The position numbers were made by a program, and so were the translations under genes. Shown here one piece after another: positions 8,678-32,999 of a DNA stretch of 64,000 bases. The stretch is from contig NZ_CP047942.1 in NCBI RefSeq assembly GCF_014279835.1, positions 186,001 to 250,000 of the forward strand, in the 5' to 3' direction. How positions within the stretch are numbered: position 1 is the first letter of the stretch; every line of letters starts with the position of its first letter. A model generated the notes under the pieces. The model was not told the DNA's origin. It ran no database searches and was given only the letters and a program-made list of their open reading frames with translations. The stretch comes from Synechococcus sp. MVIR-18-1. GTDB lineage: Bacteria; Cyanobacteriota; Cyanobacteriia; PCC-6307; Cyanobiaceae.

Positions 8678-8684
8678 ATCAATT

Positions 8685-12973: not shown

Positions 12974-13133
12974 TTTTGTTTTATATTCAATATTTGCGTA
13001 TTCTTGGTGGTTTTGCCTATTCATGATTGCGAAAAACTTGCTTTGATGAAATTAAAACCATGCTAAGATTATAGTTATTTGTAAATATTTATTCCCACAT
13101 TGTTATGAAAATTCTTCTCTTTATTGACTCTTC

Positions 13134-13616
13134 ATGCAATTGGTTTCGCCTGAACTGCGCACTCATCTTATTTCTTGGTCCTTACTTCCTTTCCATAACA
13201 TTATAAATCAAACCGAAGATAGTACGATAAGCGCTATTGCTGAAATGTGGAGACTGCCGAATCAATTTAACGATTTCTTTTTCGGCAACGGCATCTTTGT
13301 GCCGGCAAATGAATTTGATCATTATGGTGATCCAGGCTATTTGTGTTACTTCATTTATTTTGGAATAGTTGGATGTCTTTTGCATCACGGACTATTTCTT
13401 TGGATGGGATATACTACGATTAAAAAAATTCAGCCTATTAAGTTGAAACTAGCAATATTAATAATATATATTCTCATGTTTGTCACTGAATCCAAGGAAC
13501 CATTTTTCAACAAAGCAAATGTCATTTTATTTATCATGTTTTTCCTTTCTGTCTGGACATCATCAAATCAGAAGCATCATAGATTTTCGCCCGAACTTTC
13601 TGAGTATTTCTGGTAA
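13134..13616 (+). pseudogene. C-terminal fragment of a second O-antigen polymerase/ligase
   Basis: The 160-residue frame begins with a soluble loop and contains FFGNGIF...YGDPGYLCYFIYFGIVGCLLHH, the pattern seen near the C-terminus of Wzy/WaaL-like proteins, then three helices. The N-terminal 250 or so residues expected for the family are absent. Just upstream, a separate frame at 13105 starts MKILLFIDS, like a glycosyltransferase start, and runs into this one out of frame. This suggests an illegitimate join of two genes. Confidence 0.55.
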
Positions 13617-13649
13617 TTCACTTTATCTAGGATTTTTCCTGAGTCATAT

Positions 13650-14762: not shown

Positions 14763-14863
14763 CCATCGGGTGTTCTTGCGCTTGAGTATGTTTTCATTGG
14801 TTTGCATCACGATTTTAATGCATACTTCTCCTGTTTATTTGCTGATTGTTTGACTTTACTTCT

Positions 14864-15837
14864 ATGCCTCTCGCTCTTCCCGCTAAGCGGTTGCTCTTAA
14901 TCGGAAAGCTACCTCCTCCTATCGGCGGTGTCACAATTCATGTTGAGATGCTCAAGTCTCTACTTGATGGAAGACTAGAAGTAACCCACTTAGAGCTAAA
15001 ACCTAAAGTTTTGCCTCGTTTGCTGTTTGCAATTTTTTTCGTAAATATCAAACACTGCATCTTTACACTTCAAATACGCTCCTTCGATTTGTATTTTCCT
15101 TCCTCGCTAAGTTTACTAATTCTAATTCAGTAATTACTTATCATGGTAATCTTGGGCGGTATCATTCCCTTTCTAATTGGTTAGACTTCCTTTCAATCTT
15201 TTTAGTTGATATACCTCTTGTTCTGAATTCTCACAGTCTAATCCTAGCCAAGCGTTTAAACAAAAGATCTCGTATTGTCTCTGCTTTTATTCCACCTTTT
15301 AAGGCTGAGTTTCTTCCTTGCAGTGTAGGTCAAAGTGTCGTACAGGCTCGTACCAGCTTCAAGTTTATTGTATGCACTAATGCTTATAATGTTTCCTTTG
15401 ACCGATCAGGCCAAGAGATATATGGGATAAATGCCCTAATAGAGCTTTTCCAACTTTTTCCAGAGTTTTGCCTCTTGGTGAGCGATCCAAGTGGTCGCTA
15501 TGCTCAGTTTTCTGCCTCTAAGTTTCCATTCATCCCCCGTAATGTAGTCTTCCTGTCGAAGCCTCATCCTTTTATTGAGATTCTTCGATCTTCAGATTTA
15601 TTTATTCGAAATACTTCTACCGACGGTGATAGCATCTCGATATGGGAGGCTCTATCATTAATTGTTAATGTATTTGCCACTGATGTAGTGAGCCGGCCTC
15701 CTGGTGTTACCCTTTACTCATCTATTGAAGAATTAACAGACCTTCTTGGTGATTTCAACCCTAAGTGCAATGCTTACGCTAATTCAAATGTTCCATCTCT
15801 TGATGAATTAGCTGATTTTTATTTAGAGATTTACTAA
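14864..15837 (+). pseudogene. GT-B glycosyltransferase interrupted by a -1 frameshift
   Basis: The first part (ATG 14864; TTG 14846 also possible) encodes a good GT start with LLLIGKLPPPIGGVTIHVEM and stops at 15131-15133. In the -1 frame the protein continues without a break: the joined reading gives FFRKYQTLHLYTSN, then VITYHGNLGRYHSL, and runs to TAA 15835-15837 with a C-terminal donor domain. The two frames meet at seven T bases, 15033-15039, where the codons read T TTT TTC. Adding one T restores about 325 residues. It is either a broken gene, a slippage-controlled gene or a sequencing error. Confidence 0.7.
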
Positions 15838-15894
15838 ATTTTACCAGCTTGCTATTTTATTCTACCAAGCTTTTTAATTTGTTTTGTCGCTTGC

Positions 15895-17994
15895 ATGAAA
15901 CAACTTTTCCAATCCCTTTCCACCGGTTCTAGCGACCTTCCGGAGCTTCCAGCTCCTGTCGTTGGCCGTGGTCAGCTGTTGATCCGCACATCTTGCTCTC
16001 TGGTGTCGGCCGGGACTGAGCGGATGCTTGTTGATTTCGGCAAGGCCAGCTGGATTGATAAAGCCCGTCAGCAGCCAGATAAGGTTCAGCAGGTGTTGGA
16101 TAAGGCCCGCACCGATGGTGCTTTCACCACCCTTGATGCGGTACGCAGCAAGCTCGATCAGCCGCTGCCCCTCGGTTACTGCAATGTAGGCATTGTTGTG
16201 GCGGTCGGCTCCGGTGTCGTCGGTTTTCAGGTGGGTGATCGGGTCGCTTCCACTGGCCCCCATGCAGAACTGGTGGCCGTGCCCCAGCACCTCAGTGCCC
16301 TTATCCCATCAACGTTGAACGATGAGGCCGCCGCTTTCACTGTGCTGGCTTCTATTGGTTTGCAGGGCATTCGCCTGGCCAATCCCACCCTCGGCGAAAC
16401 CTTTGTTGTTAGTGGTCTGGGCCTGATTGGCCTGCTTACCGGTCAGCTTCTCGCCGCTCAGGGTTGTAATGTGCTCGGTCTTGATCCCGATCCCTCCAAA
16501 TGCGCCCTCGCGCAATCCCTTGGTATTACGTCCCTCCATCTCGCCAACGGAGTGGATCCGGTGGCCTGGTGTCTGGGCCATACGGCAGGCATCGGCGTGG
16601 ATGGCGTGTTGATCACTGCTGCCACCTCCTCCAGTGAGCCGGTCCATGTAGCAGCCCAGGCCTGCAGGCAGCGCGGTCGCATCGTGCTGGTGGGGGTGAC
16701 TGGCCTCGAACTCCGCCGCGATCTCTTTTACAAAAAAGAGCTCACTTTCCAGGTGAGCTGTTCCTATGGCCCAGGACGTTACGACCCGGCCTATGAGCAG
16801 CAGGGCCACGACTACCCCATAGGCTTTGTGCGCTGGACCGAGCAGCGCAACTTCCAAGCTGTGCTTCACGCTCTGGCCAGCGGTTCCCTTCGTACTGAGC
16901 CGCTGATCTCCCATCGCTTCTCGTTCGAGCAGGCCTCTGAGGCCTACGAGCTGCTCAGCAGCTCTGAGCCTTCACTCGGAATTTTGCTGCGCTACACCGA
17001 AACTGCTGATCCCGCTATGCGTGTGATTCAGCTGCCGGCAGCCACCGAATCGGTGGCCCCCAGTCAGCCTCTTCTGAGCGTGATTGGTGCGGGTAACTAC
17101 GCCAGCCGCATGTTGATCCCGGCTTTCGCCAAGGCTGACGCACGCTTCCACACCCTGGCGGCATCCTCAGGCATCGGCCCGGTGCATGTGGGTCGCAAAT
17201 TCGGCTTCCGTCACGCCAGTACTGACATCTCCGCTTTGCTGGCGGATTCCAGTGCCAACAGCGTTGTAATCGCCACCCGCCACGACAGTCATGCCTCCCT
17301 GGTGCAGCAGGCTCTGGATGCTGGCAAGCACGTGTTCGTGGAGAAGCCTCTTTGTCTCAACGCTAATGAGCTCTCTGCTATCGAGGCTGCCCATACGGGC
17401 CAGACCCTGCTAATGGTTGGCTTCAATCGTCGCTTTGCGCCGCTTCTCCTGGATCTTCAGCACCAGCTATCCCGCCAGCAAGGGCCGAAGGCCTTCGTTT
17501 ACACCTGCAACGCCGGTGCCATTCCCGCTGACCACTGGACCCAGGATCCAGAAGCTGGCGGCGGACGGTTACTCGGAGAGGCATGCCACTTTATTGACCT
17601 CCTGCGACACCTGGCCGCCAGTCCCATTGAAGACCTGCAGCTGCTCAACGCTGTCGATCGCAAACCCTGCCCCGACACTTTCTCGCTCCAGTTGCGCTTC
17701 GCCGATGGATCGATTGGTACCGTGCATTACTTCGCCAACGGCAGCAAGGCCTTCCCAAAAGAGCGTCTGGAGGTTTTTGCCGATGGCAAGGTTCTCCGTC
17801 TCGATAATTATCGAAAGCTCAAGGCCTGGGGCATTACTGGCTTCCGCACCCGCCGGCTTCTGTCGCAAGACAAAGGCCAGGAGGCTTGCTGTGCAGCTTT
17901 CCTTAAAGCGATTGAATCGGGAGGGTCACCTCCGATACCTGTCGCCGAGATCTTTGAAGTGCAGCGATGGCTCCTGCAGGCGGTGAGCCAATGA
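15895..17994 (+). CDS. Bi-domain sugar oxidoreductase (MDR plus Gfo/Idh/MocA), intact copy 1
   Basis: The 699-residue protein joins a medium-chain alcohol-dehydrogenase-like half (residues 1-370, with GLGLIGLLTGQLLAAQG as the nucleotide site) to a Gfo/Idh/MocA half from about 388 (VIGAGNYASRM; EKPLCL near 483). Such fusions occur in cyanobacterial and bacterial polysaccharide loci; the reaction is not established. GC content rises sharply at its start compared with the genes before it. A diverged second copy at 22083 has a nonsense codon, so this is the only intact version here. Its stop overlaps the start of wecC copy 1. Confidence 0.8.
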   Translation: MKQLFQSLSTGSSDLPELPAPVVGRGQLLIRTSCSLVSAGTERMLVDFGKASWIDKARQQPDKVQQVLDKARTDGAFTTLDAVRSKLDQPLPLGYCNVGIVVAVGSGVVGFQVGDRVASTGPHAELVAVPQHLSALIPSTLNDEAAAFTVLASIGLQGIRLANPTLGETFVVSGLGLIGLLTGQLLAAQGCNVLGLDPDPSKCALAQSLGITSLHLANGVDPVAWCLGHTAGIGVDGVLITAATSSSEPVHVAAQACRQRGRIVLVGVTGLELRRDLFYKKELTFQVSCSYGPGRYDPAYEQQGHDYPIGFVRWTEQRNFQAVLHALASGSLRTEPLISHRFSFEQASEAYELLSSSEPSLGILLRYTETADPAMRVIQLPAATESVAPSQPLLSVIGAGNYASRMLIPAFAKADARFHTLAASSGIGPVHVGRKFGFRHASTDISALLADSSANSVVIATRHDSHASLVQQALDAGKHVFVEKPLCLNANELSAIEAAHTGQTLLMVGFNRRFAPLLLDLQHQLSRQQGPKAFVYTCNAGAIPADHWTQDPEAGGGRLLGEACHFIDLLRHLAASPIEDLQLLNAVDRKPCPDTFSLQLRFADGSIGTVHYFANGSKAFPKERLEVFADGKVLRLDNYRKLKAWGITGFRTRRLLSQDKGQEACCAAFLKAIESGGSPPIPVAEIFEVQRWLLQAVSQ

Positions 17995-18963
17995 CGACTT
18001 GCTGCATTCTTGGCCTCGGCTACATCGGCCTGCCTACTGCTGCCGTGCTCGCCCGCGCCGGCCATCGAGTGATCGGCGTGGATGTCAACGCCCAAGTGGT
18101 CGCCACCGTGAACCAGGGGCAGATCCATATCGTGGAGCCCGATCTTGATCAAGCGGTGGCGGATGCGGTGGCCTCCGGTGCCCTTAGTGCCCAGCTCACA
18201 CCGTTGCCAGCCGATGTGTTCCTGATCGCTGTGCCACCGCCGTTCCGTAGCGGGTCCGATGGCATCCCACAACCCAACATCGACTACGTACTGGCTGCAG
18301 CCCGCGCGATCGCGCGGGCTGCAGCCCGGCAATCTCGTACTGCTCGAATACACCTCACCGATAGGCACCACCGAGCAGGTGGCCCAGGTGATCGCAGAGC
18401 TTTCTGGTCTAAACGCCGACCAGCTGCATATCGCCTACTGCCCCGAGCGGGTGCTGCCCGGCCGCATCCTGCAGGAACTGGTTAGCAACGATCGCGTAAT
18501 AGGTGGACTCACTCCTGAGGCGGCAGAAGCAGGAACGGCCTTCTATGCCACCTTCTGCAATGGCGAATTGCTCACCACCACCTCCCGCACCGCCGAGCTC
18601 GTGAAGCTCACCGAAAACAGCTTCCGCGATGTGAACATCGCCTTCTCCAATGAGCTCTCACTGGTGTGCGATCACCTCAGCATCAACGTGCGCGAGCTTA
18701 TCCGCCTCGCCAATCATCATCCGCGTGTGAATGTGCTGCAACCAGGCTGCGGTGTGGGCGGCCATTGCATCGCCGTGGATCCTTGGTTCATTGCCGCAGA
18801 AGCTCCCGATTGCACCCCCCTGATCCAAACGGCCCGCCGCGTGAACGACGGCAAAAGCCGCTGGGTGATCGAGCAGGTTCAGGCTCGTGCTGCGGCCCTG
18901 GAAGACCAACTCGGACGCCCGGCCCGTATCGGCTGCTTAGGTCTGGCCTTTAAGCCGAACTAA
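17991..18963 (+). pseudogene. wecC: UDP-N-acetylmannosamine dehydrogenase, broken copy 1
   Basis: It opens MTTCCILGLGYIGLPTA, like the intact copy at 24179, and stays in frame to about residue 107. A local rearrangement that forms a 34-base palindrome (18293-18326) leaves the gene two bases short relative to copy 2. The rest of the protein therefore lies in another frame, visible from LQPGNLVLL to GCLGLAFKPN. It ends at TAA 18961-18963, about 80 residues early, because asnB sequence is joined there. The catalytic Cys motif (GCGVGGHC) remains, but both lesions should abolish function. Confidence 0.88.
18293..18326 (+). repeat. 34-base perfect palindrome at the wecC frameshift
   Basis: The half-site GGCTGCAGCCCGCGCGA is followed at once by its exact reverse complement, with GCGATCGC in the centre. 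The paralogous region near 24484 encodes LAAARAIAPVLRPGN and is not palindromic. The right arm thus looks copied from the left arm, which explains both the symmetry and the two-base loss. Confidence 0.95.
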
Positions 18964-20687
18964 GCATCATTGATCCAACTTCTTCTGGGGCTCAACCAAT
19001 GCGCCTTGGAAGTTATGGGCCTCTAATCTCTTACAATGGTTAAGTTTATAATTTCATGGATTTACGCCATGAATTAATTAGTCTTGGATATAATCATTGG
19101 AGAGGTCAGTCTGATACTGAAGTCATTCTAAATGCCTATGCTCAGTGGGGTCTTGAGGGGTTAAAAAAACTTGAAGGTATCTTTTCTCTTGCACTTTGGG
19201 ATTCTGCTCAACAGCGATTAATCCTTATGCGCGACCGTCTCGGGATAAAGCCTCTTTTCTATGGAAAATGTAAATATGGCCTTGCTTTTGGTTCCGAAAT
19301 AAAAGCAGTACTTGCTTCTGGTGGTGTTGACACTAGCCTTGATGAGCAAGCCTTCTCAGAGTACCTGTGGTACGGAAACTCTTATGGTGAGCGTACTTTT
19401 TATAAGGGTGTCCATGCTTTAAAGCCTGGTCATTGGTTAATATTTGAAAATGGCTCTCAATTCATAGATAAATGGTGGTCCGTAGAGGATTGGCTTGAAG
19501 ATCATCCGTTTTCATGCGATGCATCTGAAGCTGCTTTACTTACACGAGATGCCGTTGATGCTGCCGTTAATCGTCAGTTAGTTGCTGATGTTCCTATTGG
19601 GCTGTTCTTGAGCGGCGGTGTTGATTCATCAACTATTGCTGCTTCCGCTATTCACAGCGGGAGTGTTCCTCTCCAAAGTTTTGCAGCTGGCTTTGATTAT
19701 GAATATGGTGTCAATGAGTTACCGAAGGCAGCACAGGTTGCGTCTTATCTCGGTCTTAACCATCAAGAACTAGTTATTAGTGGTACCGACTTGCGGTCTG
19801 TTCTATATAGGCTTGCTGACGCGCATGATGAGCCCTTTGCTGATGCGGCCAATATTCCTCTTTTTCTGATGTGTGATCAGCTGCAATCCAAGGTGAAGGT
19901 AGTTTTGCAAGGTGACGGAGGCGATGAACTTTTTGCAGGCTATAGACGTTATAGTCTTCTCCGCAATTCAAAGTTTTGGCGTCTTTTCCCAAAAATTCTT
20001 GCAAAATCTTTTCGTTCATTTTCTTCTTCTGGTAGGCGCCTCGCACGGATAGCGGAAACTGTAGGTCACCATGACCCTTCATATAGGATGGCTTTTTTAT
20101 TGACTGTTGAAACGCAGTACTCTCCACCCGATCGTTTATTTTGTTCCGATTTTCAACAACATCTTTGTGAAAATACCAATCCTTTCCAAGAATACCAGAA
20201 CGCGGCCAAACGCTTTGCACATTTTGATCCTGTTAGTCAGATGATGTTAACTGATCTTGTGCTTCAACTCCCATCTCAGTTTCTTACTAAGGTTGATCGA
20301 GCGTTTATGGCAGCTTCCGTTGAGGCTCGCGTCCCACTTTTGGATGAGGGTGTGTTGCGTCTAGCGTTAAATCTTCCATCTCACTTAAAAGTATCTAGAT
20401 TTGGGAAAAAGTTACCGCTCAGAGGCTCTCAGAGAAATCGTTTGCCATCCCAAATCTTAGATGGTCCTAAAACTGGGTTCGGAGTTCCATATTCTCAATG
20501 GCTTCGGACTTCTCTTTTCGATTTCTGTTGTGAACATATTTTAGATCCATCTTTCACATCACGTTTTTCTTTGGATGAATCTCTCGTTGAGGATCTTTTG
20601 CAAGACCATAAACGTGCTCCTGGTGGAAATGGCTTTTTGTTATGGAAACTATTGCAGCTCTCTTTATGGTCATCCTTAAAAAGATAG
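18959..20687 (+). pseudogene. asnB: Asparagine synthetase-like gene lacking its glutaminase start
   Basis: AsnB-like coding begins abruptly at about 18959 (reading LSIIDPTSSGAQPMRL), right after wecC sequence. The N-terminal Cys nucleophile and about 50 residues are gone. A TAA at 19041-19043 replaces the codon expected between NG and VYN. From ATG 19056 there is an open frame of 543 residues with the remainder of the glutaminase fold (SDTEVILNAYAQWG) and an intact synthetase PP-loop (LSGGVDSST) near residue 185. Without Cys1 it could at best use free ammonia. The AT-rich composition differs from the flanking wecC and oxidoreductase copies. Confidence 0.85.
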
Positions 20688-20729
20688 CTTATCGTTTTAT
20701 AGTCGACTCCTCTTTACTATTTACCAGGC

Positions 20730-21833
20730 GTGAAATTGAAATATTTACTTGTCGGAGCCTTCCCTCCGCTTTCGTCTGACGTTATTGGTGGTCAAGTTAC
20801 TGCTTGCATGAACTTATTTCCACCTACGCTTTATCCTTCTAGCAACACTGTTAGGTTTGATTCTACCCAGATTTCTAATCCTCCGCCTCATTTTCTCGTA
20901 CGTCTTGCCCTTTCCTTCTTGAAGGTATTTAGATTTACTTTTTTGATTTATAAATGCAGGCCTCAATATGTGTGCATTCTTTTTACCTCAGGTTCCTCTC
21001 TCCTGGAAAAAACATTATTTGTACTTGTTGCCCGACTTTTCTCCTCAAATTCGAGAATAATTTTATTCCCTCGTTCGGATGTTGTCCTTTCTCAGCTTTC
21101 TTGTAACTTCTTCCTGCGCTATTCTTTTGCACTCCTTTTGCGCATTGCAAATGGATGGGTCTTGCAATCTCCTAGTTTTATCAATAAATTTCCTGTATTA
21201 GACGCGCCTAGTACATTCATTTCTCCTAATTCAATAGATTCCGGTCTTTACCCTTACTCTCTCTCCTCTCTTGTTTTGGCAAAGCAAAAATCTCTCGGTT
21301 TTTCTATTTTATTCGTAGGTTGGCTTGAGCCCGTAAAGCAAGTCGATTTAATTTTTTATGGTATTAGGCATTTTATGAATAAGCATGCTAATTGTGATAT
21401 CGAATTTAACATTATTGGTGATGGCTCATGTCGCCATGATCTCGAACATTTAGCCACCAAGCTCTGTATAAATACAATCTTTCATGGATGGGTTTCTGAT
21501 AAAAATCTGCTATCGAGGATTTATTCAGAATCATCTTGCTTCTGCCTCGCTTCAAGGCAGGAAGGTTTCCCTAATGTTGTCCTTGAAGCTTTAATTCATA
21601 ACCTGCCTGTTTTATCAACACAAGTAGGAGCATTGCCTTACTTCTTTGATGACAATAGGCATATAATTTTCTTTCATTCAAGTCCTGACAGTCTTTCTAG
21701 GTCTATTGAAAAGATCTACTTTGACAGTGATTTCTATAAATTATTGCAGGTCAATTCGCGACGGCTTATTTCGGATTTTAGTCCAACAGTCACCTCCTCT
21801 AAGGTTAAGGGTTTTATTGACTCTATTAGTTGA
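20730..21833 (+). CDS. GT4-family glycosyltransferase
   Basis: The 367-residue enzyme starts at GTG 20730 and has LLVGAFPPLSSDVIGGQVTA at its N-terminus, a FLFVGWLEPVKQ-like hinge (ILFVGWLEPVKQVDLI) near 190, and donor-site motif QEGFPNVVLEAL near residue 272. It is AT-rich like asnB and lies with it between the two GC-rich oxidoreductase-wecC copies. It probably adds a sugar to the repeat unit. A 249-base gap without genes follows. Confidence 0.8.
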   Translation: MKLKYLLVGAFPPLSSDVIGGQVTACMNLFPPTLYPSSNTVRFDSTQISNPPPHFLVRLALSFLKVFRFTFLIYKCRPQYVCILFTSGSSLLEKTLFVLVARLFSSNSRIILFPRSDVVLSQLSCNFFLRYSFALLLRIANGWVLQSPSFINKFPVLDAPSTFISPNSIDSGLYPYSLSSLVLAKQKSLGFSILFVGWLEPVKQVDLIFYGIRHFMNKHANCDIEFNIIGDGSCRHDLEHLATKLCINTIFHGWVSDKNLLSRIYSESSCFCLASRQEGFPNVVLEALIHNLPVLSTQVGALPYFFDDNRHIIFFHSSPDSLSRSIEKIYFDSDFYKLLQVNSRRLISDFSPTVTSSKVKGFIDSIS

Positions 21834-22082
21834 ATAATTTTTGCTTTTTATTATTAGTTTGGTTTTATTGGCATTTTTAATTTTCGCCTCTTGTTATCCA
21901 AGTCTTGGCGTATTTTCTGTATCGCTTTTGTAGTCGCTGATCACTTGTGTTTGTCTTTTATGCGCTTTTGATTTACATTGACTAAAAAATACGTCTTGGC
22001 AATCGATTAGCCTTTGATGTCCACTTATTAAGATTTTGCGGTCGGAACCCAGGAGCATGACACAGCTCCCTTTCTCTTTTTT

Positions 22083-24182
22083 ATGAAACAACTTTTGCAC
22101 TCACTCGCGACAGGGGCCATCGAGCTAACTGATCTACCTGCTCCTGTTGTTCCGCATGGACATCTACTGGTCCGAACAGCCTCCTCTTTGCTTTCAGTTG
22201 GCACCGAGCGAATGCTGGTTGATTTCGGCAAAGCTAATTGGCTTGACAAGGCACGCCAGCAGCCTGACAAAGTTCAGGAGGTGATAGAAAAGGCTCGCGC
22301 CGATGGCCTATTTGCAACTCTTGATGCTGTAAAAAGCAAACTAGATCAGCCTATTGCTCTTGGTTACTGCAATGTCGGCACTGTATTGGCAGTTTGAGAA
22401 GGTGTTTCTGGCTTCCATGTAGGTGATCGTGTTGCATCTAATGCTTCTCATGCTGAGCTTGTAGTAGTCCCTAAGCATCTCTCCGCCCGGATCCCTGCTC
22501 ATGTCAGCGATGAGGCTGCTTCTTTCACGGTTCTTGCATCTATTGGACTTCAGGGCACCCGTCTGGCTCAGCCCACTCTTGGCGAAACTTTTCTGGTGAG
22601 TGGTCTTGGGTTGATCGGGCTTCTTACAGCTCAGTTGTTACAGGCTCAAGGTTGTCGAGTACTGGGCTTGGATCCAGATTCGTCTAAGTGTGACCTTGCA
22701 GAAGGCCTTGGTGTAAAGGCCCTCAACTTACGCTCTGGTACCGACCCGGTTGCTTGGTGCCTGGAGCACACTGACGGTATTGGTGTGGATGGCGTGTTGA
22801 TTACCGCTGCCACTTCCTCCAGTGAGCCGATGCATCTTGCTGCCCAGTCCTGCCGCCAGCGAGGCCGAATCGTTTTGGTTGGCGTAACGGGCCTCGAACT
22901 TCGCCGCGATCTTTTTTACAAAAAGGAGCTCTCCTTCCAGGTGAGCTGCTCCTACGGACCCGGTCGTTATGACCCGGCCTATGAGCAGCAGGGCCATGAC
23001 TACCCAATCGGATTTGTGCGCTGGACCGAGCAGCGCAACTTCCAGGCTGTGCTTCACGCCCTTGCCACCGGCGCTTTGCGAACTGAGCAGTTGATCTCCC
23101 ATCGCTTCCCGATCGAGCAGGCCTCTGATGCCTATCAGCTGCTCAGTAGCCCTGAGCCTTCCCGCGGGATACTGCTGCACTACACAGAAACAGCAAATCC
23201 TAAGCAGCGTGTTGTTGATTTGCCAGCTGCTTCAGAATCGTTGGCCCCAAGCCAGCCGCTACTGAGCGTGATCGGTGCCGGTAATTACTCCAGCCGCATG
23301 CTGATACCCGCTTTCGCAAAAGTTGGCGCACATTTCCACACCCTGGCCGCCTCTTCGGGCATTGGACCAGTGCAAGTGGGGCGAAAGTTCGGCTTCCGTC
23401 ACGCCAGTACTGATATCCCCGCCTTGCTGGCGGATTCCAGAACTAACAGCGTGGTAATTGTCACCCGCCACGACAGTCACGCCGCCCTGGTGCAGCAGGC
23501 TCTGGACGCTGGCAAGCACGTTTTCGTGGAGAAGCCGCTCTGCCTTACTATTGAAGAACTCGCTGCTATCGAAGCCGCCCACACGGGCCATTCGCTGCTG
23601 ATGGTGGGTTTCAATCGTCGCTTTTCGCCGTTGCTTCTGGATCTGCAGCAGCAGCTCTCTCGGCTGCAAGGACCTAAGGCTTTCGTGTACACCTGTAATT
23701 CCGGTGCAATCCCCGCCGACCACTGGATCCAGAATCCAGCCGCCGGTGGCGGCCGACTGCTCGGTGAGGCCTGCCACTTTGTAGATCTGCTTCGCCACCT
23801 GGCCGGCAGCCCCATACAAGAACTGCAGTTGATCAACGCCGCCGACTGCAAACTCTGCCCTGATACTTTTTCGCTGCAGCTGCGCTTCGGCGATGGTTCG
23901 ATCGGCACCGTGCACTATTTCGCTAACGGCAGCAAGGCATTCCCTAAAGAGCGCCTCGACGTATTCTGCGACGGTAAAGTGCTGCAGTTAGATAATTTCC
24001 GCAAACTAAAGGCTTGGGGAATTCCTGGCTTTCGTACTCGCCGTCTCGTGTCGCAAGACAAAGGCCAAGAAGCCTGTTGTGCTGCTTTTCTTAAAGCGAT
24101 TGAAATCGGCGGGTCACCCCCGATTCCAACTGGCGAGCTCTTTGAGGTGCAGCGTTGGCTGCTGCAGGCGGTAAACCAATGA
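22083..24182 (+). pseudogene. Bi-domain sugar oxidoreductase, copy 2 with an in-frame stop
   Basis: This copy matches copy 1 (15895) along its whole length and encodes the same two domains. TGA at 22395-22397 interrupts the first domain where copy 1 has GSG (GTVLAV-stop-EGVSGF here). After the stop the frame remains open to 24182. The second frame could start inside the MDR half (ORF from 22596), but this would lack its first 170 residues. The defect is a single base change, so it is recent, an error, or read through. Confidence 0.85.
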
Positions 24183-25393
24183 CAACGTGCTGCATCCTTG
24201 GCCTCGGCTATATAGGCTTGCCTACTGCTGCTGTGCTCGCACGTTCTGGCCATCGGGTGGTCGGGGTGGATGTGAACTCCGAGGTTGTGGCCACTGTGAA
24301 TCAGGGCCAGATCCACATTGTGGAGCCCGATCTCGATCGTGCTGTAGCTGATGCCGTTGCCTCCGCTGCCCTCAGCGCTCAGTCCACACCGGTGCCAGCC
24401 GATGTCTTCCTGATCGCCGTGCCAACCCCGTTCAGCAGCCGGGCTGATGGTATCCCCCAGCCCAACATCGACTACGTGCTTGCTGCAGCTCGTGCAATCG
24501 CGCCTGTTCTTCGTCCGGGCAATCTCGTACTTCTGGAATCCACCTCACCGGTGGGCACCACTGAGAAGGTGGTGGAAGAGATGAGTAAAATTGCTAATTT
24601 AGACTTCGATCATATCCACGTTGCCTACTGCCCTGAGCGGGTGCTGCCAGGCCGGATCTTGCAGGAACTGATCAGCAACGACCGTGTGATCGGAGGCTTC
24701 ACTTCAGCAGCAGCAGAAGCAGGCAAGGCTTTTTATGCCACCTTCTGCCAAGGCGAATTACTCACCACTAGCGCCCGCACCGCCGAGCTGGTAAAGCTCA
24801 CTGAGAACAGCTTCCGCGATGTGAACATCGCCTTCGCCAATGAGCTCTCGCTGGTGTGCAATCACCTCGAGATCAATGTGCGTGAGCTGATCCGCCTAGC
24901 CAACCACCATCCTCGAGTGAATGTGCTGCAGCCCGGCTGCGGTGTTGGAGGCCACTGCATCGCCGTGGATCCCTGGTTTATTGCCGCCGCAGCCCCCCAT
25001 TGCACACCTCTGATTCAAACTTCACGCCACGTGAATGACGGCAAGGGCCGATGGGTGATCGAGCAGGTTCAGGCCCGCGCTGCAGCCCTGGAGGATAAAC
25101 TTGGTCGTACTGCTCGTGTCGGCTGTCTGGGCTTGTCTTTTAAGCCGGATGTGGACGATTTGCGTGAATCTCCCGCTCTGCACATCACCACTGAGCTGCT
25201 CGTTGCTGGCCTCGACGTCCTCGCCTGCGAGCCCAACCTCCACGACCACCCCACCATCAAGCTCCACAGCCTCCAACAGGTGCTCGCCAAGGCTGATCTG
25301 CTGGTGTTCCTCGTGGCCCACACCCCTTTCCGCAATCTTGATCTCGGCGGCCGCACTGTGTTTGACCTCTGCGGTGTGACCGAGCAAGCGTGA
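24179..25393 (+). CDS. wecC: UDP-N-acetyl-D-mannosamine dehydrogenase, intact copy 2
   Basis: The 404-residue protein has an N-terminal NAD site (ILGLGYIGLPTAAVLA), a central STSPVGTTEKV segment, catalytic Cys260 in QPGCGVGGHCIAVDPW, and a complete C-terminal UDP-binding domain starting LGLSFKPDVDDLRESPA. It should oxidise UDP-ManNAc to UDP-ManNAcA. No UDP-GlcNAc 2-epimerase (WecB) is seen in the window. ATG 24179 overlaps the preceding stop by four bases, the same arrangement as in copy 1. It also overlaps the next gene. Confidence 0.9.
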   Translation: MTTCCILGLGYIGLPTAAVLARSGHRVVGVDVNSEVVATVNQGQIHIVEPDLDRAVADAVASAALSAQSTPVPADVFLIAVPTPFSSRADGIPQPNIDYVLAAARAIAPVLRPGNLVLLESTSPVGTTEKVVEEMSKIANLDFDHIHVAYCPERVLPGRILQELISNDRVIGGFTSAAAEAGKAFYATFCQGELLTTSARTAELVKLTENSFRDVNIAFANELSLVCNHLEINVRELIRLANHHPRVNVLQPGCGVGGHCIAVDPWFIAAAAPHCTPLIQTSRHVNDGKGRWVIEQVQARAAALEDKLGRTARVGCLGLSFKPDVDDLRESPALHITTELLVAGLDVLACEPNLHDHPTIKLHSLQQVLAKADLLVFLVAHTPFRNLDLGGRTVFDLCGVTEQA

Positions 25394-27351
25394 GGGTTCT
25401 TTCTCAGCTTCGCACCAGTAAGCAGCTGGGTTGGCGCAATTGTGCGGCTGTTTTCGCCCACCGAGTGGCGCTGCGTGCTGGCCTCTACGAGCACCAGTTG
25501 CCGCTAATGCCTTGTCCCATCCCTGAGCTGCTCAACGGCCAGCCCCAACCGGCTCCGTTATCCTCCGATTTCTGGCCGGTGACATCCCGCAAACAATGTC
25601 TCGCTGTGGCCGATGCCCTGCTGTCGGGCACGGCCACCTGGTTCAGCCATGAGAGCTATGCCGTTGGCTCCCCTCCCGATTGGTTCCTTGACCCCGCCTC
25701 TAGCCAGCGCTTTCAGGATGGCGCGCAGCACTGGAGCCGTTGCCGTCCATTCTTCGGCGCCGATATCAAGCGCTGTTGGGAGCTCTCCCGCTGGGGCTGG
25801 GCTCCACTCCTGATCCGTGCCTGGCGCTTAAGTGGCGACCAGCGCTACCGCGATGGCTTCAACAGCTGGTGCCAGAGCTGGTGCCAGGTCAACCCCGTGA
25901 ATGGCGGAAGCAACTGGCTCTGCGGCCAGGAAGCGTCCATTCGCCTGCTCCATGCCCTACAGGCCTGGCAGCTCGCGGATGCCCCAGCCCAGCTGCCTGA
26001 TTCCAGCTCCCAGCGTGCTGCATTTGCGGCGGCGCATCTACAGCGCATCGCTGCCACCGAGCGCTATGCCCAGGCGCAGGACAACAACCATTGGACTTCA
26101 GAATCTGCCGCCTTGTTCATCGGCGGCAGCTGGCTGGCCGCTTCCGCTGGCCCCCATGCTGCCGCCGGCCGTCGCTGGGCCGCTGAAGGACGCCGAGCTC
26201 TAGAACGCAGCGTGGCGCGACTGCTAATGGCCGATGGCTCTTTTGCGCAGCACTCGCTCACTTATCACCGCCTGCTGCTCGATACCCTTGCCCAGGTGGA
26301 GCTCTGGCGCCGCTGGCTGAATCTGCCGCCCTTCTCGAAGCGCTTTCAGGAGTGCTGCCTTGCGGCGTCTCATTGGTTTGCTGCGCTGGTCGATCCCTGC
26401 AGTGGTGATGGTCCCAATCTGGGCAGCAACGACGGGGCCTGTGTCTATCAGCTGCACAGTCAGCCCTACCGCGATTTCCGGCCCACTTTGCAACTTTCCT
26501 CGCTGTTGTTTTCAGGTCAGCCAGCCCTGGCGCCGGGCCCTTGGGATGAGCCGCTCCATTGGCTTGCACTGATCAGTTCGTCAGCAGAAGGTTTTGGTGC
26601 TTTATCACCGCAAGCAACGGCGGCTTCTTTGCTAGTGCCTCAGCCGCCACAAGCAATTGAGCTCTTTGCCCATGGCGGCTATGGGCTGCTGAGGCCAACC
26701 AGCACCAGCTGGGCTTTGCTGCGGCTGCCCGTCTACCGTTTCCGGCCGGCCCATTCTGATCCGCTGCACCTCGATCTCTGGCATCAGGGCGTGAACCTGC
26801 TGCGCGATGGCGGCAGCTACGCCTACAACGCCGAAGCCGCTGATCTGGCCTACTTCCCCGGCATAGCTAGCCACAATTCTGTGCAGTTCGATGGCACCGA
26901 GCCCATGCCCCGCCTCGGTCGCTTCCTATGGGGCGACTGGCTGCAGCTGGAAGTACCTCCGCAGAAGGAGTCGGGCAAGGCCGCCCCGTCGATCACCGCG
27001 GCCTACCGCTGCCCCCATGGCCGCCATCAGCGCAGGGTGCAGGTCGATTCCAGTGGACTGCGCTGGACGATCACCGACCACTGCTCCGCGTTCCGCGATC
27101 GCCTAGTGCTGCGCTGGCGTCTCTGCCCCTCTAATTGGCAGCTATCGACTAAAGATGCGTCAGCTGAGCTCTGCAGCCTCCATGCCAAGATCAGGATGGA
27201 GTGCAACCAGCCGTTCCAGCGCTTGGAGCTGGTGGAAGGGTGGGAATCTTTGTTCTATGCCCACAAAATATCGCTACCGGTGTTGGAGCTTGAAGTAGCC
27301 GCAGTCCCATCACCTGTTTTGATCACAACCCACATCGCCCTGCCGGCATAG
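25390..27351 (+). CDS. Heparinase II/III-family protein
   Basis: The 653-residue protein starts at GTG 25390, overlapping the wecC stop. The alpha-helical N-terminal toroid includes DNNHWTSESAALFIGGSW near residue 230 and DGSFAQHSLTYHRLLLD near 282. A beta-rich C-terminal part has HSDPLHLDLWHQGVNLLRDG near 455. This is the layout of heparinase/alginate-lyase-like proteins common in exopolysaccharide loci, where they are thought to cleave or edit the uronic-acid polymer. No obvious signal peptide is seen, so export is unclear. Pairing with a uronate-forming wecC is consistent. Confidence 0.8.
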   Translation: MRVLSQLRTSKQLGWRNCAAVFAHRVALRAGLYEHQLPLMPCPIPELLNGQPQPAPLSSDFWPVTSRKQCLAVADALLSGTATWFSHESYAVGSPPDWFLDPASSQRFQDGAQHWSRCRPFFGADIKRCWELSRWGWAPLLIRAWRLSGDQRYRDGFNSWCQSWCQVNPVNGGSNWLCGQEASIRLLHALQAWQLADAPAQLPDSSSQRAAFAAAHLQRIAATERYAQAQDNNHWTSESAALFIGGSWLAASAGPHAAAGRRWAAEGRRALERSVARLLMADGSFAQHSLTYHRLLLDTLAQVELWRRWLNLPPFSKRFQECCLAASHWFAALVDPCSGDGPNLGSNDGACVYQLHSQPYRDFRPTLQLSSLLFSGQPALAPGPWDEPLHWLALISSSAEGFGALSPQATAASLLVPQPPQAIELFAHGGYGLLRPTSTSWALLRLPVYRFRPAHSDPLHLDLWHQGVNLLRDGGSYAYNAEAADLAYFPGIASHNSVQFDGTEPMPRLGRFLWGDWLQLEVPPQKESGKAAPSITAAYRCPHGRHQRRVQVDSSGLRWTITDHCSAFRDRLVLRWRLCPSNWQLSTKDASAELCSLHAKIRMECNQPFQRLELVEGWESLFYAHKISLPVLELEVAAVPSPVLITTHIALPA

Positions 27352-27353
27352 CC

Positions 27354-29246
27354 GTGAAGGTTCTCTACTACCACCAGTACTTCTCAACCCCCGCAGGTCC
27401 GGCCGGTACCCGCTCCTATGCCCTGGCCCATTCCCTTGTGGAAGCTGGCCATCAGGTGCAGATGGTCTGCTTGCAGGACGCCCGCACCCACACCGGCCTA
27501 TCCGGGCCCTTCACCGCAGGGTGCCGGTCTGGTCTGGTGGATGGCATTGAGGTGATCGAGTTCGATCTGCCCTACTCCAACCACGCCGGCTTGCTGGATC
27601 GCGCGCTGGTCTTTTTGCGTTACAGCTGGCAGAGCCTGCGGCTCGCTCTGCGCTCCGATGCAGATCTGATCTTCGCCACCACCACTCCGCTCACAGCTGG
27701 CATTCCTGGAATCGCCGCCCGCTGGCTGCGCGGGATTCCCTTCGTGTTTGAGGTGCGTGACCTCTGGCCCGAGCTGCCCCGCGCCATGGGTGTGGTGCGC
27801 AATCCTCTGGTGCTGCGAGCTCTCTCCGTTCTGGAGTGGTGCAGTTATCACTCGGCAGATGCCTGCATCGGTCTGGCCCCCGGCATCTGTGAGGGCATTG
27901 CTGATCGTGGCGTTGCTCCCAGCCTGATCACTTCCATTCCCAATGCCTGCGATTTGGTTCTGTTTCACCCTCCGTCGCCTGCCCAGCACAAGCGGCCCGA
28001 GTTGATCCCAGGGGTAGCGGCACGTTCGTTTGTGGCGGCCTTCACCGGGGCCCATGGCCAGGCCAATGGCTTGGATGCTGTGCTCGATCTCGCTGCTGAA
28101 TTGCGCCGTCGGGGTCGCAACGACATCAAGTTATTGTTAATTGGCGATGGCCGCTGCAAGCCAGCCCTGAAGCAGCGCGTGGCTGCCGAGAATCTGCAGA
28201 ACTGCCATTTCCTGCCACTTGTCCCCAAGCCCCACCTGGCTCATTTGCTGCGCCAGTCAGTGCATGTGGGCTTGATGGTGCTTGCGGATGTGCCGGCCTT
28301 CTATCGCGGCACCTCCCCCAACAAGTTCTTCGACTACCTGGCTTGCGGTTTGCCTGTGGTGAACAACTACCCCGGCTGGCTGGCTGATCTGATTCGCAGC
28401 CATCAGCTGGGTGTGCCTGTCCCCCCCCGCGACCCCAAGGCCTTTGCCGATGCCCTGATTGCTCTTGCGGATGATCCGGTGCAGCGCCAGACCATGGGGG
28501 AGAACGCCCGCGCTCTGGCGGAATCCAAGTTTTCCCGTGTTCTACTGGCGGCCCAGTGGCGCAAGGTGCTGGAAAGTACGGCTAAGCGCTATGGCCGTCG
28601 CCGTATTGGCTTTGTGCGCCGTACCGCCTATCGGTTGCTCAAAGGTGCCGCTGATCGCCTGGCCGCTCTGCTCGCCCTGCTACTGCTTTCTCCGTTGTTG
28701 CTGGTGGTAGCTGTTTTGGTGCGCTGGCGTTTGGGAGCACCGGTGCTGTTCCGCCAGCAGCGCCCTGGCTATGTCGAGCGGCCCTTTGAGCTGCTCAAGT
28801 TCCGCACGATGACCAACGCCCGCGATGCCTCCGGCGCCCTGCTAACCGATGCCGAGCGGCTCACGCCCTTTGGCCGTTGGTTGCGTGCCACCTCCATTGA
28901 TGAATTGCCAGAGCTGATCAACATCCTGCGCGGCGAGATGAGCTTTGTTGGGCCGCGTCCGCTGCTGATGCAATACCTGCCCCTTTACTCCCCCGTGCAG
29001 GCCCGCCGCCATGATGTGAAGCCTGGTTTCAGTGGCTGGGCTCAGATCAATGGCCGCAATGCCCTCCCGTGGGAGGAAAAGTTCCGCCTGGATGTCTGGT
29101 ATGTGGATCACCAGAGCTTCTGGCTGGATCTGCGCATTTTCCTCATCACCCTTTGGAAAGTGATACGCCGTGATGGCATCAGCGCTGCTGGTGAAGCCAC
29201 CATGGCGCCGTTCACAGGATCGGCGCCTGCTTCTGAGGCGCGCTGA
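27354..29246 (+). CDS. Fusion of GT4 glycosyltransferase and phosphoglycosyl transferase
   Basis: The 630-residue protein starts at GTG 27354. Residues 1-410 form a GT4 enzyme (YYHQYFSTPAGPAGTRSYALA at the start, TSPNKFFDYLACGLPVV at the donor site). Residues 422-610 form a bacterial sugar transferase: one hydrophobic re-entrant helix, then FRQQRPG, ELLKFRTMT, SIDELPELINIL and MSFVGPRPLL. The second part would transfer a phosphosugar to undecaprenyl phosphate; the first would add the next sugar. With PglD/E/F-like genes next door, the phosphosugar is likely diacetylbacillosamine. Confidence 0.88.
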   Translation: MKVLYYHQYFSTPAGPAGTRSYALAHSLVEAGHQVQMVCLQDARTHTGLSGPFTAGCRSGLVDGIEVIEFDLPYSNHAGLLDRALVFLRYSWQSLRLALRSDADLIFATTTPLTAGIPGIAARWLRGIPFVFEVRDLWPELPRAMGVVRNPLVLRALSVLEWCSYHSADACIGLAPGICEGIADRGVAPSLITSIPNACDLVLFHPPSPAQHKRPELIPGVAARSFVAAFTGAHGQANGLDAVLDLAAELRRRGRNDIKLLLIGDGRCKPALKQRVAAENLQNCHFLPLVPKPHLAHLLRQSVHVGLMVLADVPAFYRGTSPNKFFDYLACGLPVVNNYPGWLADLIRSHQLGVPVPPRDPKAFADALIALADDPVQRQTMGENARALAESKFSRVLLAAQWRKVLESTAKRYGRRRIGFVRRTAYRLLKGAADRLAALLALLLLSPLLLVVAVLVRWRLGAPVLFRQQRPGYVERPFELLKFRTMTNARDASGALLTDAERLTPFGRWLRATSIDELPELINILRGEMSFVGPRPLLMQYLPLYSPVQARRHDVKPGFSGWAQINGRNALPWEEKFRLDVWYVDHQSFWLDLRIFLITLWKVIRRDGISAAGEATMAPFTGSAPASEAR

Positions 29247-29890
29247 TGGCGTCTTTGCTGCTATTGGGTGCAGGTGGTCACGCCCGGGTCGTGGCTGAAA
29301 CCGCTCTCTCCACCGGACGCTTCAGCAGCATCGCCTTCCTTGATGATCGCTGCAGCGGCCCCGCTCAGCTACCTGATCAACTCGGCTGGCCGGTGATCGG
29401 CCCCTTTTCGGCAGCCCACGATCGCCAGATCTGTCAGCAATTCCAAGCAGCGCTGGTGGCCATCGGCAATGCCACCGTGCGTCTGCAGTGGTTGCCACGT
29501 CTTGCCGCTGCTGGCTACGAGCTCCCCGTTGTGATTCATCCCACTGCCTGGCTGTCGCCTTCCGCTCAGCTTGGTGCCGGTTCGGTGGTGTTCGCCCAGG
29601 CCGCCATCCAGGCCCAGGCCATGATCGGTAGCGGCGCCATCCTCAATACGGGGTGCTCGGTGGATCACGACGCCCAGCTTGGCGATGGCGTGCACATCTG
29701 CCCCGGTGCCCGTCTCGCGGGCGAAGTGCAGGTGGGTGATCGCAGTTGGATCGGCATCGGCGCGTCAATGATTCAGCAGATCTGTATCGGCGCTGATGTC
29801 ACCGTGGGTGCCGGTGCCTCCGTGGTGCGTGATCTGCCCGATGGCGTCACCGCCGTCGGCGTGCCGGCGAGGGTGTTGCCCACCGCCTAA
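29246..29890 (+). CDS. PglD/NeuD-like sugar O/N-acetyltransferase
   Basis: The 214-residue protein has an N-terminal Rossmann-like domain (LLLGAGGHARVVAET) and a C-terminal left-handed beta helix of hexapeptide repeats (GSGAILNTGCSVDHDAQLGD, then PGARLAGEVQVGD). His in the VDHDA turn is the usual catalytic base. Family members acetylate UDP-4-amino sugars using acetyl-CoA. It overlaps the fusion gene by one base (TGATG). Confidence 0.85.
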   Translation: MASLLLLGAGGHARVVAETALSTGRFSSIAFLDDRCSGPAQLPDQLGWPVIGPFSAAHDRQICQQFQAALVAIGNATVRLQWLPRLAAAGYELPVVIHPTAWLSPSAQLGAGSVVFAQAAIQAQAMIGSGAILNTGCSVDHDAQLGDGVHICPGARLAGEVQVGDRSWIGIGASMIQQICIGADVTVGAGASVVRDLPDGVTAVGVPARVLPTA

Positions 29891-29916
29891 CTCATTAGCT
29901 TTCACCTCTTCCTCGC

Positions 29917-31083
29917 GTGACTCTCGCCCCCTGGCCCCAGTTCGACGCCGATCAGATCGACGCCGCCACCCGCGTGCTCGCTTCCGGCAAGGTGAACACC
30001 TGGACCGGCCAGGAAACCACCGCCTTTGAGCAGGAGTTTGCTCAGTGGTGCGGCACTGCCCATGCCATCGCCATGGCCAATGGCTCCCTGGCCCTCTCGG
30101 CCGCCTACCTGGCCATTGGCCTCGGGCCCGGCGATGAGCTGATCACCACGCCGCGCACCTTCATCGCCACCGCCTCCAGCGCCGTGCTGCTCGGCGCCAA
30201 GCCGTTGTTCGCCGATGTGGATGCCGAATCCGGCGCCATCACCGCCGCCACGATTGCACCGCTGATCACCCCCCGCACTAAGGCCATCTCCGTGGTGCAC
30301 CTCGGTGGCTGGCCCGCAGACATGCCCGCGATTCTCGAATTGGCCCGCGCCCACGGCATTGCAGTGATCGAAGACTGCGCCCAGGCCCATGGCGCCCGCA
30401 TCCACGGCCAGTCCGTGGGCAGCTTCGGCGATGTATCTGCCTGGAGTTTTTGCCAGGAGAAAATTATTTCCACTGGCGGTGAGGGCGGCATCGTGACCAC
30501 TAGCCGAGCTGATCTCTGGGATCTGATTTGGGCCTTTAAAGACCATGGCAAAACCCATGAGTCGGTCTTCAGCCGCGAGCATCCGCCCGGCTTCCGTTGG
30601 CTGCACGAGCGCTTTGGCTCTAATTTCCGCCTCACGGAATTGCAGAGCGCCATTGGCCGAATCCAGCTGCAGCGTCTACCAGAGTGGACCGCCGCCCGTA
30701 CCCGCAATGCCTTGTTCCTTGCCGAAGCCCTGGCCGATTGCTCCGCGGTGCGTGTGCCCCTGCCGCCCGAGGGAATCACCCATGCCTGGTACAAGTTCTA
30801 TGCCTTCGTAAAGCCCGATGCGCTTGCCGATGGCTGGAGCCGCGATCGGATCCTTGCCGAGATCGCATCCCTCGGCTACCCCGCCCTTTCTGGCAGCTGC
30901 AGCGAGATCTACCTAGAGCGCTGCTTCAAGGAAGCTGGTCTGGCTCCCGCTGAGCGCTTGCATGTGGCCCGTGAGTTGGGCGAAACCAGCTTGATGTTCT
31001 TGGTGCATCCCACAATTACTTCTGAGCAGATGGCGGCCTATGCCGATGCTTTGCGTTCGGTGGTGAAGCAAGCGTGTCGATGA
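29917..31083 (+). CDS. DegT/DnrJ/EryC1 aminotransferase (PglE-like)
   Basis: This 388-residue PLP enzyme starts at GTG 29917. Lys182 in CQEKIISTGGEGG is the PLP lysine. IEDCAQAHGA near 150 carries the ring-stacking and Asp positions of the family. HPTIT close to the end is also typical. In this setting it should aminate a UDP-4-keto-6-deoxy-GlcNAc made by the next gene's product, giving the substrate of the acetyltransferase before it. Confidence 0.87.
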   Translation: MTLAPWPQFDADQIDAATRVLASGKVNTWTGQETTAFEQEFAQWCGTAHAIAMANGSLALSAAYLAIGLGPGDELITTPRTFIATASSAVLLGAKPLFADVDAESGAITAATIAPLITPRTKAISVVHLGGWPADMPAILELARAHGIAVIEDCAQAHGARIHGQSVGSFGDVSAWSFCQEKIISTGGEGGIVTTSRADLWDLIWAFKDHGKTHESVFSREHPPGFRWLHERFGSNFRLTELQSAIGRIQLQRLPEWTAARTRNALFLAEALADCSAVRVPLPPEGITHAWYKFYAFVKPDALADGWSRDRILAEIASLGYPALSGSCSEIYLERCFKEAGLAPAERLHVARELGETSLMFLVHPTITSEQMAAYADALRSVVKQACR

Positions 31084-32999
31084 AGCTTTTTTCGTTGCGC
31101 CAGTTCGCTCGGCTCTCTCCCCTTGCCCGCCGCCTGTTGCTGATCGGTATCGACGCTTTGCTGCTGCCCCTGGCGATATGGTTAAGTTTCTGGCTGCGGC
31201 TGGCTCAGCCGTTCCATGCCAGTTTTATGGCTGCCGGTCTGTGGTTGCTGCCAGCGGTGTTGCTGGTTGGCCTTCCGCTGTATGCCTTCACCGGGCAATA
31301 CAAAGGCCTCACGCGCTACGTCGGTAGTCGTGCCCTTTACCGCCTTGCCGGCCGCAATGGATTGTTTGTGCTGCTTTTGGCGGCTACCGGCATGATGCTG
31401 CGTTTGCCGATGCCTCCCCGCAGCAGCTGGATCCTGCTCTGGTTGCTGCTCACCGGCTTCACCGGAGCGGTGCGCTTTGCCCTGCGCGATCTGCTCCTGT
31501 CACTGCGCTCGGTTGCGCACAAGCGGCAAATGGTGCGTGTTGCCATCTATGGCTCCGGTGAGGCCGGTGCTCAGCTCGCTGCTGCCCTGCGCCTAGCGGG
31601 AAACCATCAGATCGTCACTTTTCTGGATGATGCACCAGTGCTCTGGCAGCGCACGATCAACGACATTCCGATCCAGCCTCCCCAAGTGCTGAGTGAGATG
31701 CAGGATCAGCTCGATCAGGTGTTGCTGGCAATCCCCTCATTGCCCCGCAGTGAACGCCGCCGCATCGTGGCTGAGTTGCAACGCCAGTCGATCCCGGTGT
31801 TGCAGATCCCCTCGGTTGATGACCTCACCTCCGGACGGGCCCAAATCGATGCGCTCCGCCCCGTAGCTATTGAAGATCTGCTCGGCCGTGATCCTGTTCC
31901 GCCCGTGCCGGAGCTGCTTGGCCCTGGCCTGCGTGATGCGGTGGTGTGCGTCACCGGCGCCGGTGGTTCGATCGGTTCTGAGCTCTGTCGCCAGATCCTG
32001 CAGTTAGCCCCCAGGGTTTTGCTCCTGCTCGAAAGCAGTGAACCGTCGCTTTACGCCCTGGAGCAGGAGCTCCGCCAGCAGTTGCCTGCTTCGGTGACCC
32101 TGCTTCCTGTGCTTGGCAGCGCCGCCAATCCTGCTCTGGTGCAGCGGCTTTTTGCAGACCATGGCGTGCAGACCGTGTTCCACGCCGCCGCTTACAAACA
32201 TGTGCCTTTAGTAGAGGCCAACCCGTTGGCGGGCTTGGCCAACAATGTGGGCTCCACGCGGGTGGTCTGTCAGGCCGCCGTTGCCGTGGGCGTCAACGAG
32301 CTAGTCCTGATCTCCACAGACAAAGCGGTGCGTCCCACCAATGTGATGGGCGCTAGCAAGCGCCTGGCGGAGCTGGTGGTTCAGGCCTCAGCTCTTGAGG
32401 CGTTGCAGGGTGCCCATGCAGCTGGCCAGCCCTGCACCCGTTTGTCGATGGTGCGCTTCGGCAATGTGCTGGGCTCGTCGGGATCGGTGGTGCCTTTGTT
32501 TCGTAAACAGATTGCCGCTGGGGGACCGATCACACTCACCCACCCCGAAATCATCCGCTACTTCATGACGATCCCAGAGGCAGCAGAACTGGTGCTTCAG
32601 GCCTCCACCCTGGCCAAGGGCGGTGATGTTTTCTTGCTCGATATGGGCGAACCTGTGCGCATTAAATCCCTGGCCGAGCAGATGGTTCGCCTCAGCGGCC
32701 TCTCACTTCGCGATGCTCAAAACCCCAACGGAGAGATCGCCATCTCCTGCACGGGCCTGCGCCCCGGCGAAAAGCTCTACGAAGAACTGCTGATCGATGC
32801 CGAATCCGAACCCACCAAGCACCCCCTGATCTTCCGCGCTCAGGAGCGATCCTTGCCACCGGAGCTGCTCTGGCCTCGCTTGGATGCGCTCGATGCCGCG
32901 ATCGCGGCGCAGGATGTTGAGGGAGCGCTGGCGTTGCTGGCGGAGCTGGTGCCCGAGTGGCAGCGAGGCGATCGTGTGAATGAAGCTGTTAGGGCCTAG
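31080..32999 (+). CDS. Membrane-bound UDP-sugar 4,6-dehydratase (PglF/WbpM-like)
   Basis: The protein is about 639 residues from ATG 31080, which overlaps the previous stop; GTG 31074 is an alternative. Four hydrophobic helices fill residues 1-130, followed by a nucleotide-binding CoA-binding-like domain (VAIYGSGEAGAQLA) and a C-terminal SDR domain. That domain has VTGAGGSIGSELC near residue 290 and STDKAVRPTNVMGASKR near 412. Met stands where short-chain enzymes have Tyr, as in the long PglF/WbpM type. It likely converts UDP-GlcNAc to the 4-keto-6-deoxy sugar. Confidence 0.88.
   Translation: MKLFSLRQFARLSPLARRLLLIGIDALLLPLAIWLSFWLRLAQPFHASFMAAGLWLLPAVLLVGLPLYAFTGQYKGLTRYVGSRALYRLAGRNGLFVLLLAATGMMLRLPMPPRSSWILLWLLLTGFTGAVRFALRDLLLSLRSVAHKRQMVRVAIYGSGEAGAQLAAALRLAGNHQIVTFLDDAPVLWQRTINDIPIQPPQVLSEMQDQLDQVLLAIPSLPRSERRRIVAELQRQSIPVLQIPSVDDLTSGRAQIDALRPVAIEDLLGRDPVPPVPELLGPGLRDAVVCVTGAGGSIGSELCRQILQLAPRVLLLLESSEPSLYALEQELRQQLPASVTLLPVLGSAANPALVQRLFADHGVQTVFHAAAYKHVPLVEANPLAGLANNVGSTRVVCQAAVAVGVNELVLISTDKAVRPTNVMGASKRLAELVVQASALEALQGAHAAGQPCTRLSMVRFGNVLGSSGSVVPLFRKQIAAGGPITLTHPEIIRYFMTIPEAAELVLQASTLAKGGDVFLLDMGEPVRIKSLAEQMVRLSGLSLRDAQNPNGEIAISCTGLRPGEKLYEELLIDAESEPTKHPLIFRAQERSLPPELLWPRLDALDAAIAAQDVEGALALLAELVPEWQRGDRVNEAVRA

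Follow-up and report, generated by a model that had tools for sequence, protein, structure and literature searches.

Two oxidoreductase-wecC pairs and a destructive joint in a surface-polysaccharide region of Synechococcus sp. MVIR-18-1: a candidate scar of cassette stacking

A 64-kb stretch of the Synechococcus sp. MVIR-18-1 genome, hereafter the window (positions 186001-250000 of a single contig of 2,451,974 bases), carries two oxidoreductase-wecC gene pairs separated by AT-rich cargo (Table 1). The locus can be read, with about even confidence, as the scar that stacked cassettes left in a surface-polysaccharide operon subject to horizontal exchange, in which a segment 'asnB-GT4-oxi2-wecC2 would have joined inside wecC1. 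The case is real, explained in outline and ordinary in kind: xenologous cassette stacking with a destructive joint, not the decay of a duplication. Exchange of whole sets of surface-sugar genes is rarely seen under way, and here one genome keeps both alleles together with the joint.

Table 1. Features of the two gene pairs, the cargo and the downstream genes (window coordinates).
Feature	Position	Strand	Remarks
oxi1, two-domain oxidoreductase (zinc-dehydrogenase-like plus Gfo/Idh/MocA)	15895..17994	+	ORF open, 699 codons
wecC1, UDP-ManNAc dehydrogenase fragment	17991..18957	+	ATG 17991; 2-nt frameshift
Perfect 34-bp palindrome	18293..18326	.	contains the wecC1 2-nt frameshift
wecC1/asnB joint	18955..18963	.	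wecC1 runs mid-gene into asnB
asnB fragment	18960..20687	+	first 48 codons missing; in-frame TAA 19041-19043; ORF 19056-20687 is the remainder
GT4-type glycosyltransferase	20730..21833	+	open, AT-rich
oxi2, oxidoreductase copy 2	22083..24182	+	one stop: TGA 22395-22397, codon 105
oxi2 change point	22736..22804	.	5' part diverged, low-GC3; rest resembles relatives
wecC2, UDP-ManNAc dehydrogenase	24179..25393	+	open; ATG 24179, stop ends 25393
Downstream block	25390..32999	+	heparinase II/III-like, GT plus sugar transferase, PglD-like, DegT, Polysacc_synt_2

The neighbourhood is a surface-polysaccharide region. Its genes are AT-rich up to 15.8 kb and GC-rich thereafter, except for an AT-rich interval that separates the copies. 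Parts of the downstream block are common to three relatives, G018 (a genome of the same genus), G020 and G025. Judged by its gene families, the sugar product presumably contains ManNAcA and a diNAcBac-type sugar. Phages and grazers probably exert pressure on the surface sugars of marine picocyanobacteria.

The two oxidoreductases align without a gap from end to end and share 82% protein identity over 699 aa, far above chance, while nucleotide identity between the copies varies from 63 to 92% per 100 aligned columns. wecC2 passes the NCBIfam UDP-ManNAc dehydrogenase profile (wecC, NF008286) with 517.5 bits against a cut-off of 459. wecC1 is 79% identical to it in protein over the part matched past the frameshift (residues 100-328), and its similarity stops at about 18957, at codon ~323 of 404. 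ORFs, alignment and repeats bear out what the first-pass annotation had described, namely two diverged pairs in the same direction that have lost opposite members, oxi2 carrying a TGA and wecC1 a frameshift, with one open gene of each kind (oxi1 and wecC2) kept. That annotation had proposed to map conversion tracts. Alignment and an exact-run scan of both copies found no near-identical tract, the longest exact run common to both being 32 nt at an overall identity of about 80%; the copies thus bear no mark of gene conversion in the recent past, and this possibility is rejected.

wecC1 and asnB are both truncated at one joint, where unrelated sequences are fused and both genes are cut. The best full-length asnB relative among the fetched loci is that of Marinobacter iranensis (L080; 60% identical, 345/572 residues), against which the window asnB begins at residue 49. 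An N-terminal Cys has a role in the amidotransferase part of AsnB, and a gene without its first 48 codons is also without this residue; the TAA falls inside a conserved YNGE-YNF stretch. Two early descriptions need amending accordingly: wecC1 is frameshifted and truncated as first annotated but is also fused to asnB, and the cargo is AT-rich with an open GT4 but a broken asnB. The order asnB, GT4-like gene, oxidoreductase recurs in L080, L047 and L085 (asnB 60, 54 and 40% and GT4 27, 30 and 29% identical to those of the window), which is consistent with the cargo having its own oxidoreductase. No donor of asnB besides the window emerged in 400 family genomes at E <= 1e-120, nor any in 319 phylum genomes at E <= 1e-90; for GT4, none besides the window was found in the 400 family genomes at E <= 1e-45.

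A resident operon of variable cargo, oxi1, wecC1 and downstream genes would have been the starting state. The incoming segment, its left end inside asnB and carrying asnB'-GT4-oxi2-wecC2, would have joined by that end inside wecC1 (codon ~323) without obvious homology, and by its right end probably through homology somewhere downstream, as in homology-facilitated illegitimate recombination. This one event would have cut wecC1 short at its 3' end and asnB at its 5' end, leaving two xenologous pairs adjacent. Redundancy might then have allowed the TGA in oxi2, and wecC1 and asnB, already dead, would have taken their frameshift and TAA. We infer from the present arrangement a single event, its direction, a right-hand joint and the order of the lesions. 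A right-hand homologous joint was not found in the downstream DNA, which drops the high identity of wecC1 to G018 with no clear switch; oxi2 holds a change point that may or may not be tied to the joining event.

On the best reading, the joint killed both wecC1 and asnB, and only the TGA of oxi2 need be a separate functional loss. The joint itself thereby accounts for much of the gene loss. The complementary decay originally proposed stands as an end state and not as two parallel decays, because wecC1 was cut by the fusion to asnB and probably took its frameshift afterwards. The case is a warning against taking opposite losses in a pair of copies for matched decays, since a single fusion can explain most of them. 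A related course, in which a whole second cassette was imported and a later deletion fused wecC1 to asnB, is rather unlikely. It too would make the copies xenologs, with the fusion as a separate event; the ancestry data below (dS, AU tests, gyrB and ileS) fit it equally, the same appearance would be expected, and deletions likewise take the ends off two neighbouring genes. It requires one extra event, however, and no intermediate was seen among the relatives inspected.

Close wecC homologues occur in 17 of 400 family genomes (E <= 1e-120). Of 31 genus genomes, seven, counting that of the window, have the oxidoreductase, and among these only the window has two copies. Eight other family loci were inspected over stretches of 15-40 kb (G020, G018, G025, G016, G009, G010, G147 and G246). 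Each has one full, stop-free oxidoreductase and one close wecC, to which G147 adds a decayed oxidoreductase fragment. The gene directly upstream of the oxidoreductase mostly differs among them, asnB recurring in G009 and G016.

The wecC tree places copy 1 with G018 (support 98) and copy 2 with G025 (94), and a clade of both copies is rejected (constraint cost 60 log units, AU p 4.7e-6). wecC dS is 0.29 between copy 1 and G018, 0.60 between copy 1 and G020, 0.82 between the two copies and 0.78 between copy 2 and G025; over 18295-18894, wecC1 is 94-96% identical to G018. Between the window genome and G018, dS reaches 3.06 in gyrB and 1.46 in ileS, so these alleles of the operon were passed between lineages once the species had separated.

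The oxidoreductase tells a different story. Over codons 226-699, a tree that groups the two copies fits as well as the best one (AU p 0.54), and the groupings of copy 1 with G018 (p 0.017) and of copy 2 with G025 (0.001) are rejected; over codons 1-225, neither the two copies together (0.28) nor copy 2 with G025 (0.14) is rejected. AU outcomes thus differ between wecC and the oxidoreductase parts, so histories vary along the operon, and older shared ancestry or exchange within the oxidoreductase gene may be involved. As judged from wecC, with the oxidoreductase not rejecting a common clade, the copies are xenologs rather than a home-grown duplication. An origin of the copies in different lineages, part of what the first-pass annotation had named as evidence against its own model, is accordingly found for wecC and not for the oxidoreductase.

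That model, a local tandem duplication followed by long divergence and opposite losses, is very unlikely. It would explain the shared orientation and order of the copies, a duplicated asnB-GT4-oxi-wecC unit would also yield the wecC/asnB fusion, and the oxidoreductase trees do not reject it. Trees and AU tests on wecC, however, reject duplication in place, and wecC1 is nearer to another species' allele than to wecC2. Nor does the DNA upstream of oxi1 repeat asnB or hold another, closely similar GT4: within 7000-15894 no second asnB-GT4 block was found, and the search returned a weak glycosyltransferase-family match to GT4 (23%, E 1.4e-5) and two chance-level asnB matches. Just upstream of oxi1, at 14846-15834, lies a gene whose open sequence is split between two frames that overlap (14846-15130 and 15007-15834), which looks like one frameshifted polysaccharide gene and a further cargo lesion.

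A change-point test on five oxidoreductase alleles (both copies, G018, G020 and G025; 500 block permutations) placed a change in copy 2 at alignment column 669 (interval 653-721, about 22.74-22.80 kb). Agreement with the other alleles is 79.5% before this point and 88.6% after it, which 0 of 500 permutations reach, and GC3 of oxi2 goes from 0.38 to 0.63 at 22716. In G018, agreement changes from 51.9% to 90.6% at column 106 (0 of 500 permutations); copy 1, G020 and G025 show no change point in the same test (459, 330 and 261 of 500). The 5' end of the oxidoreductase gene is thus of other ancestry than the rest in two of the five alleles, as if cargo had been swapped by crossover inside the gene. 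The suggestion that the copies serve as recombination arms fares poorly for exchange with each other, given their divergence and short exact runs. In exchange between strains, the oxidoreductase does seem to have served as a hinge.

dN/dS is 0.07-0.17 in all comparisons of copy 1 or copy 2 with finite dS (dS is saturated between copy 2 and G025 over oxidoreductase codons 1-225), and oxi2 holds one lesion in 699 codons. By these measures, purifying selection acted on both pairs through almost the whole of their time apart, and the low dN/dS implies that the lesions are recent. A restart past the oxi2 TGA is rejected, the earliest in-frame ATG, GTG or TTG being codon 172. Selenocysteine at the TGA is rejected: neither G000 nor G677, the genomes with oxi2 and L060, had a SelB match over the selB cut-off, which 2 of 14 control genomes exceeded.

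Codon 105 is Gly in 76 of 85 aligned loci, a gap in four, Asp in two, Ala in two and a stop in one. That stop belongs to L060 (MAG Candidatus Euphemobacter frigidus), whose oxidoreductase is 51-52% identical and otherwise open; its single in-frame TGA, at 2886-2888, falls in the same codon as window 22395-22397 and is the only stop in those matches, the decayed G147 piece aside. A single change would turn 173 codons of oxi2 into a stop and 43 into TGA. Judged after the fact, the two genes would thus agree by chance about once in 170 cases, or once in 40 if the stop is taken to be TGA. Four of 44 genomes matched in the phylum of L060, the other three without any stop, and five of 139 in the family of L033, none with a stop. 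Chance or separate decay is the likeliest explanation of the shared TGA.

The palindrome that contains the wecC1 frameshift is GC-rich, with a fold of -36.8 kcal/mol (RNA parameters). It is absent in its perfect form from copy 2 and from all six aligned relatives. No other spacer-free palindrome is as long in the 2,007,961 bases of loci that were fetched, some of which overlap; the next measures 28 bp. The frameshift is likely a quasipalindrome template switch, a class of mutation in which, in the accessible text of PMC7202029, an imperfect inverted repeat is likewise turned perfect with a frameshift; the window differs in being a natural case. The frameshift probably came later than the joint, because about 80 codons had already been lost there. 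An error of sequencing or assembly behind the TGA, the frameshift or the joint is highly improbable: the lesions are read from the assembly and the frameshift sits in a GC-rich palindrome that is hard to sequence, but the assembly is one contig, 99.93% complete, and wrong calls at single bases would not produce the truncated ends of wecC1 and asnB.

Similar arrangements occur elsewhere. Each locus's own oxidoreductase was compared with the rest of that locus (E <= 1e-4) across 88 loci, 87 of them distinct (L012 and G018 are the same contig). Among the 17 matches, three from two loci are upstream N-terminal fragments with cargo between fragment and intact gene. A divergent 5' fragment, cargo and an intact copy thus recur in 2 of 87 other distinct loci, a lower bound because many loci are short and some flanks are at most 10 kb. 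G147 has broken asnB and oxidoreductase pieces, then a 229-codon ORF (methyltransferase-like by eye) and an intact oxidoreductase-wecC pair. L051, a Gemmatimonadetes MAG, has at 4613-12124 an open asnB, a 309-codon oxidoreductase piece, more ORFs and an intact oxidoreductase. The fragments are 44-47% (G147) and 52% (L051) identical to the neighbouring intact genes, a divergence that makes them look like xenologs too. One further match is a short inverted one in L055, and the remaining 13 (24-33%, confined to the Gfo/Idh/MocA part) look like family paralogs. No wecC remnant above 40% identity was found beside other wecC genes in the searched loci.

It is tempting, if speculative and on balance doubtful, to regard the oxidoreductase as a general bacterial hinge at which new cassettes bring divergent 5' ends and broken upstream fragments record past swaps. 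Were this so, cassettes would be stacked in the same way in Cyanobacteria and in at least one Gemmatimonadetes genome, and the scars would give a legible record of past surface types. As separate observations, the oxidoreductase piece of the G147 region (L125, L126) is 58% identical to window oxi2 and 44% to its own neighbour over the first ~118 residues, and L055 holds at 12262-12372, directly behind its intact gene, an inverted 40-residue match (62.5%) to the middle of the oxidoreductase.

O-antigen and capsule cassettes are exchanged between strains as variable cargo beside conserved genes, with crossovers in the conserved genes. The layout of cargo and conserved genes in the window is alike, except that the window genome still keeps both alleles. 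In the T6SS clusters of Vibrio cholerae, the accessible text of PMC5361080 describes sequential displacement, in which new modules join beside a conserved anchor and older parts are orphaned, and its authors propose for this stacking of immunity arrays a process akin to homology-facilitated illegitimate recombination. The window differs in that its genes are cyanobacterial polysaccharide genes, its remnants lie upstream and its homologous joint is not located. Homology-facilitated illegitimate recombination itself, as far as the accessible part of PMC3240628 goes, resembles the window in having one joint without homology at which the foreign DNA is cut, whereas the homologous end in the window is inferred. 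Searches found no literature that pairs the oxidoreductase name with 'polysaccharide' and none that names the locus in its title or the start of its abstract; the accessible part of PMC7522525 does not touch on the operon.

Two further features of the window lie outside the pairs. NAD_synthase-like, GATase and His_biosynth genes at 4151-6728, about 9 kb from oxi1, resemble a trio upstream of the oxidoreductase in G010 (53-67%) and G025 (33-46%). GC content dips twice more, to about 0.42-0.46 at 33500-36200 and to about 0.37-0.41 at 59500-64000, against about 0.60, and these dips are perhaps more acquired DNA.
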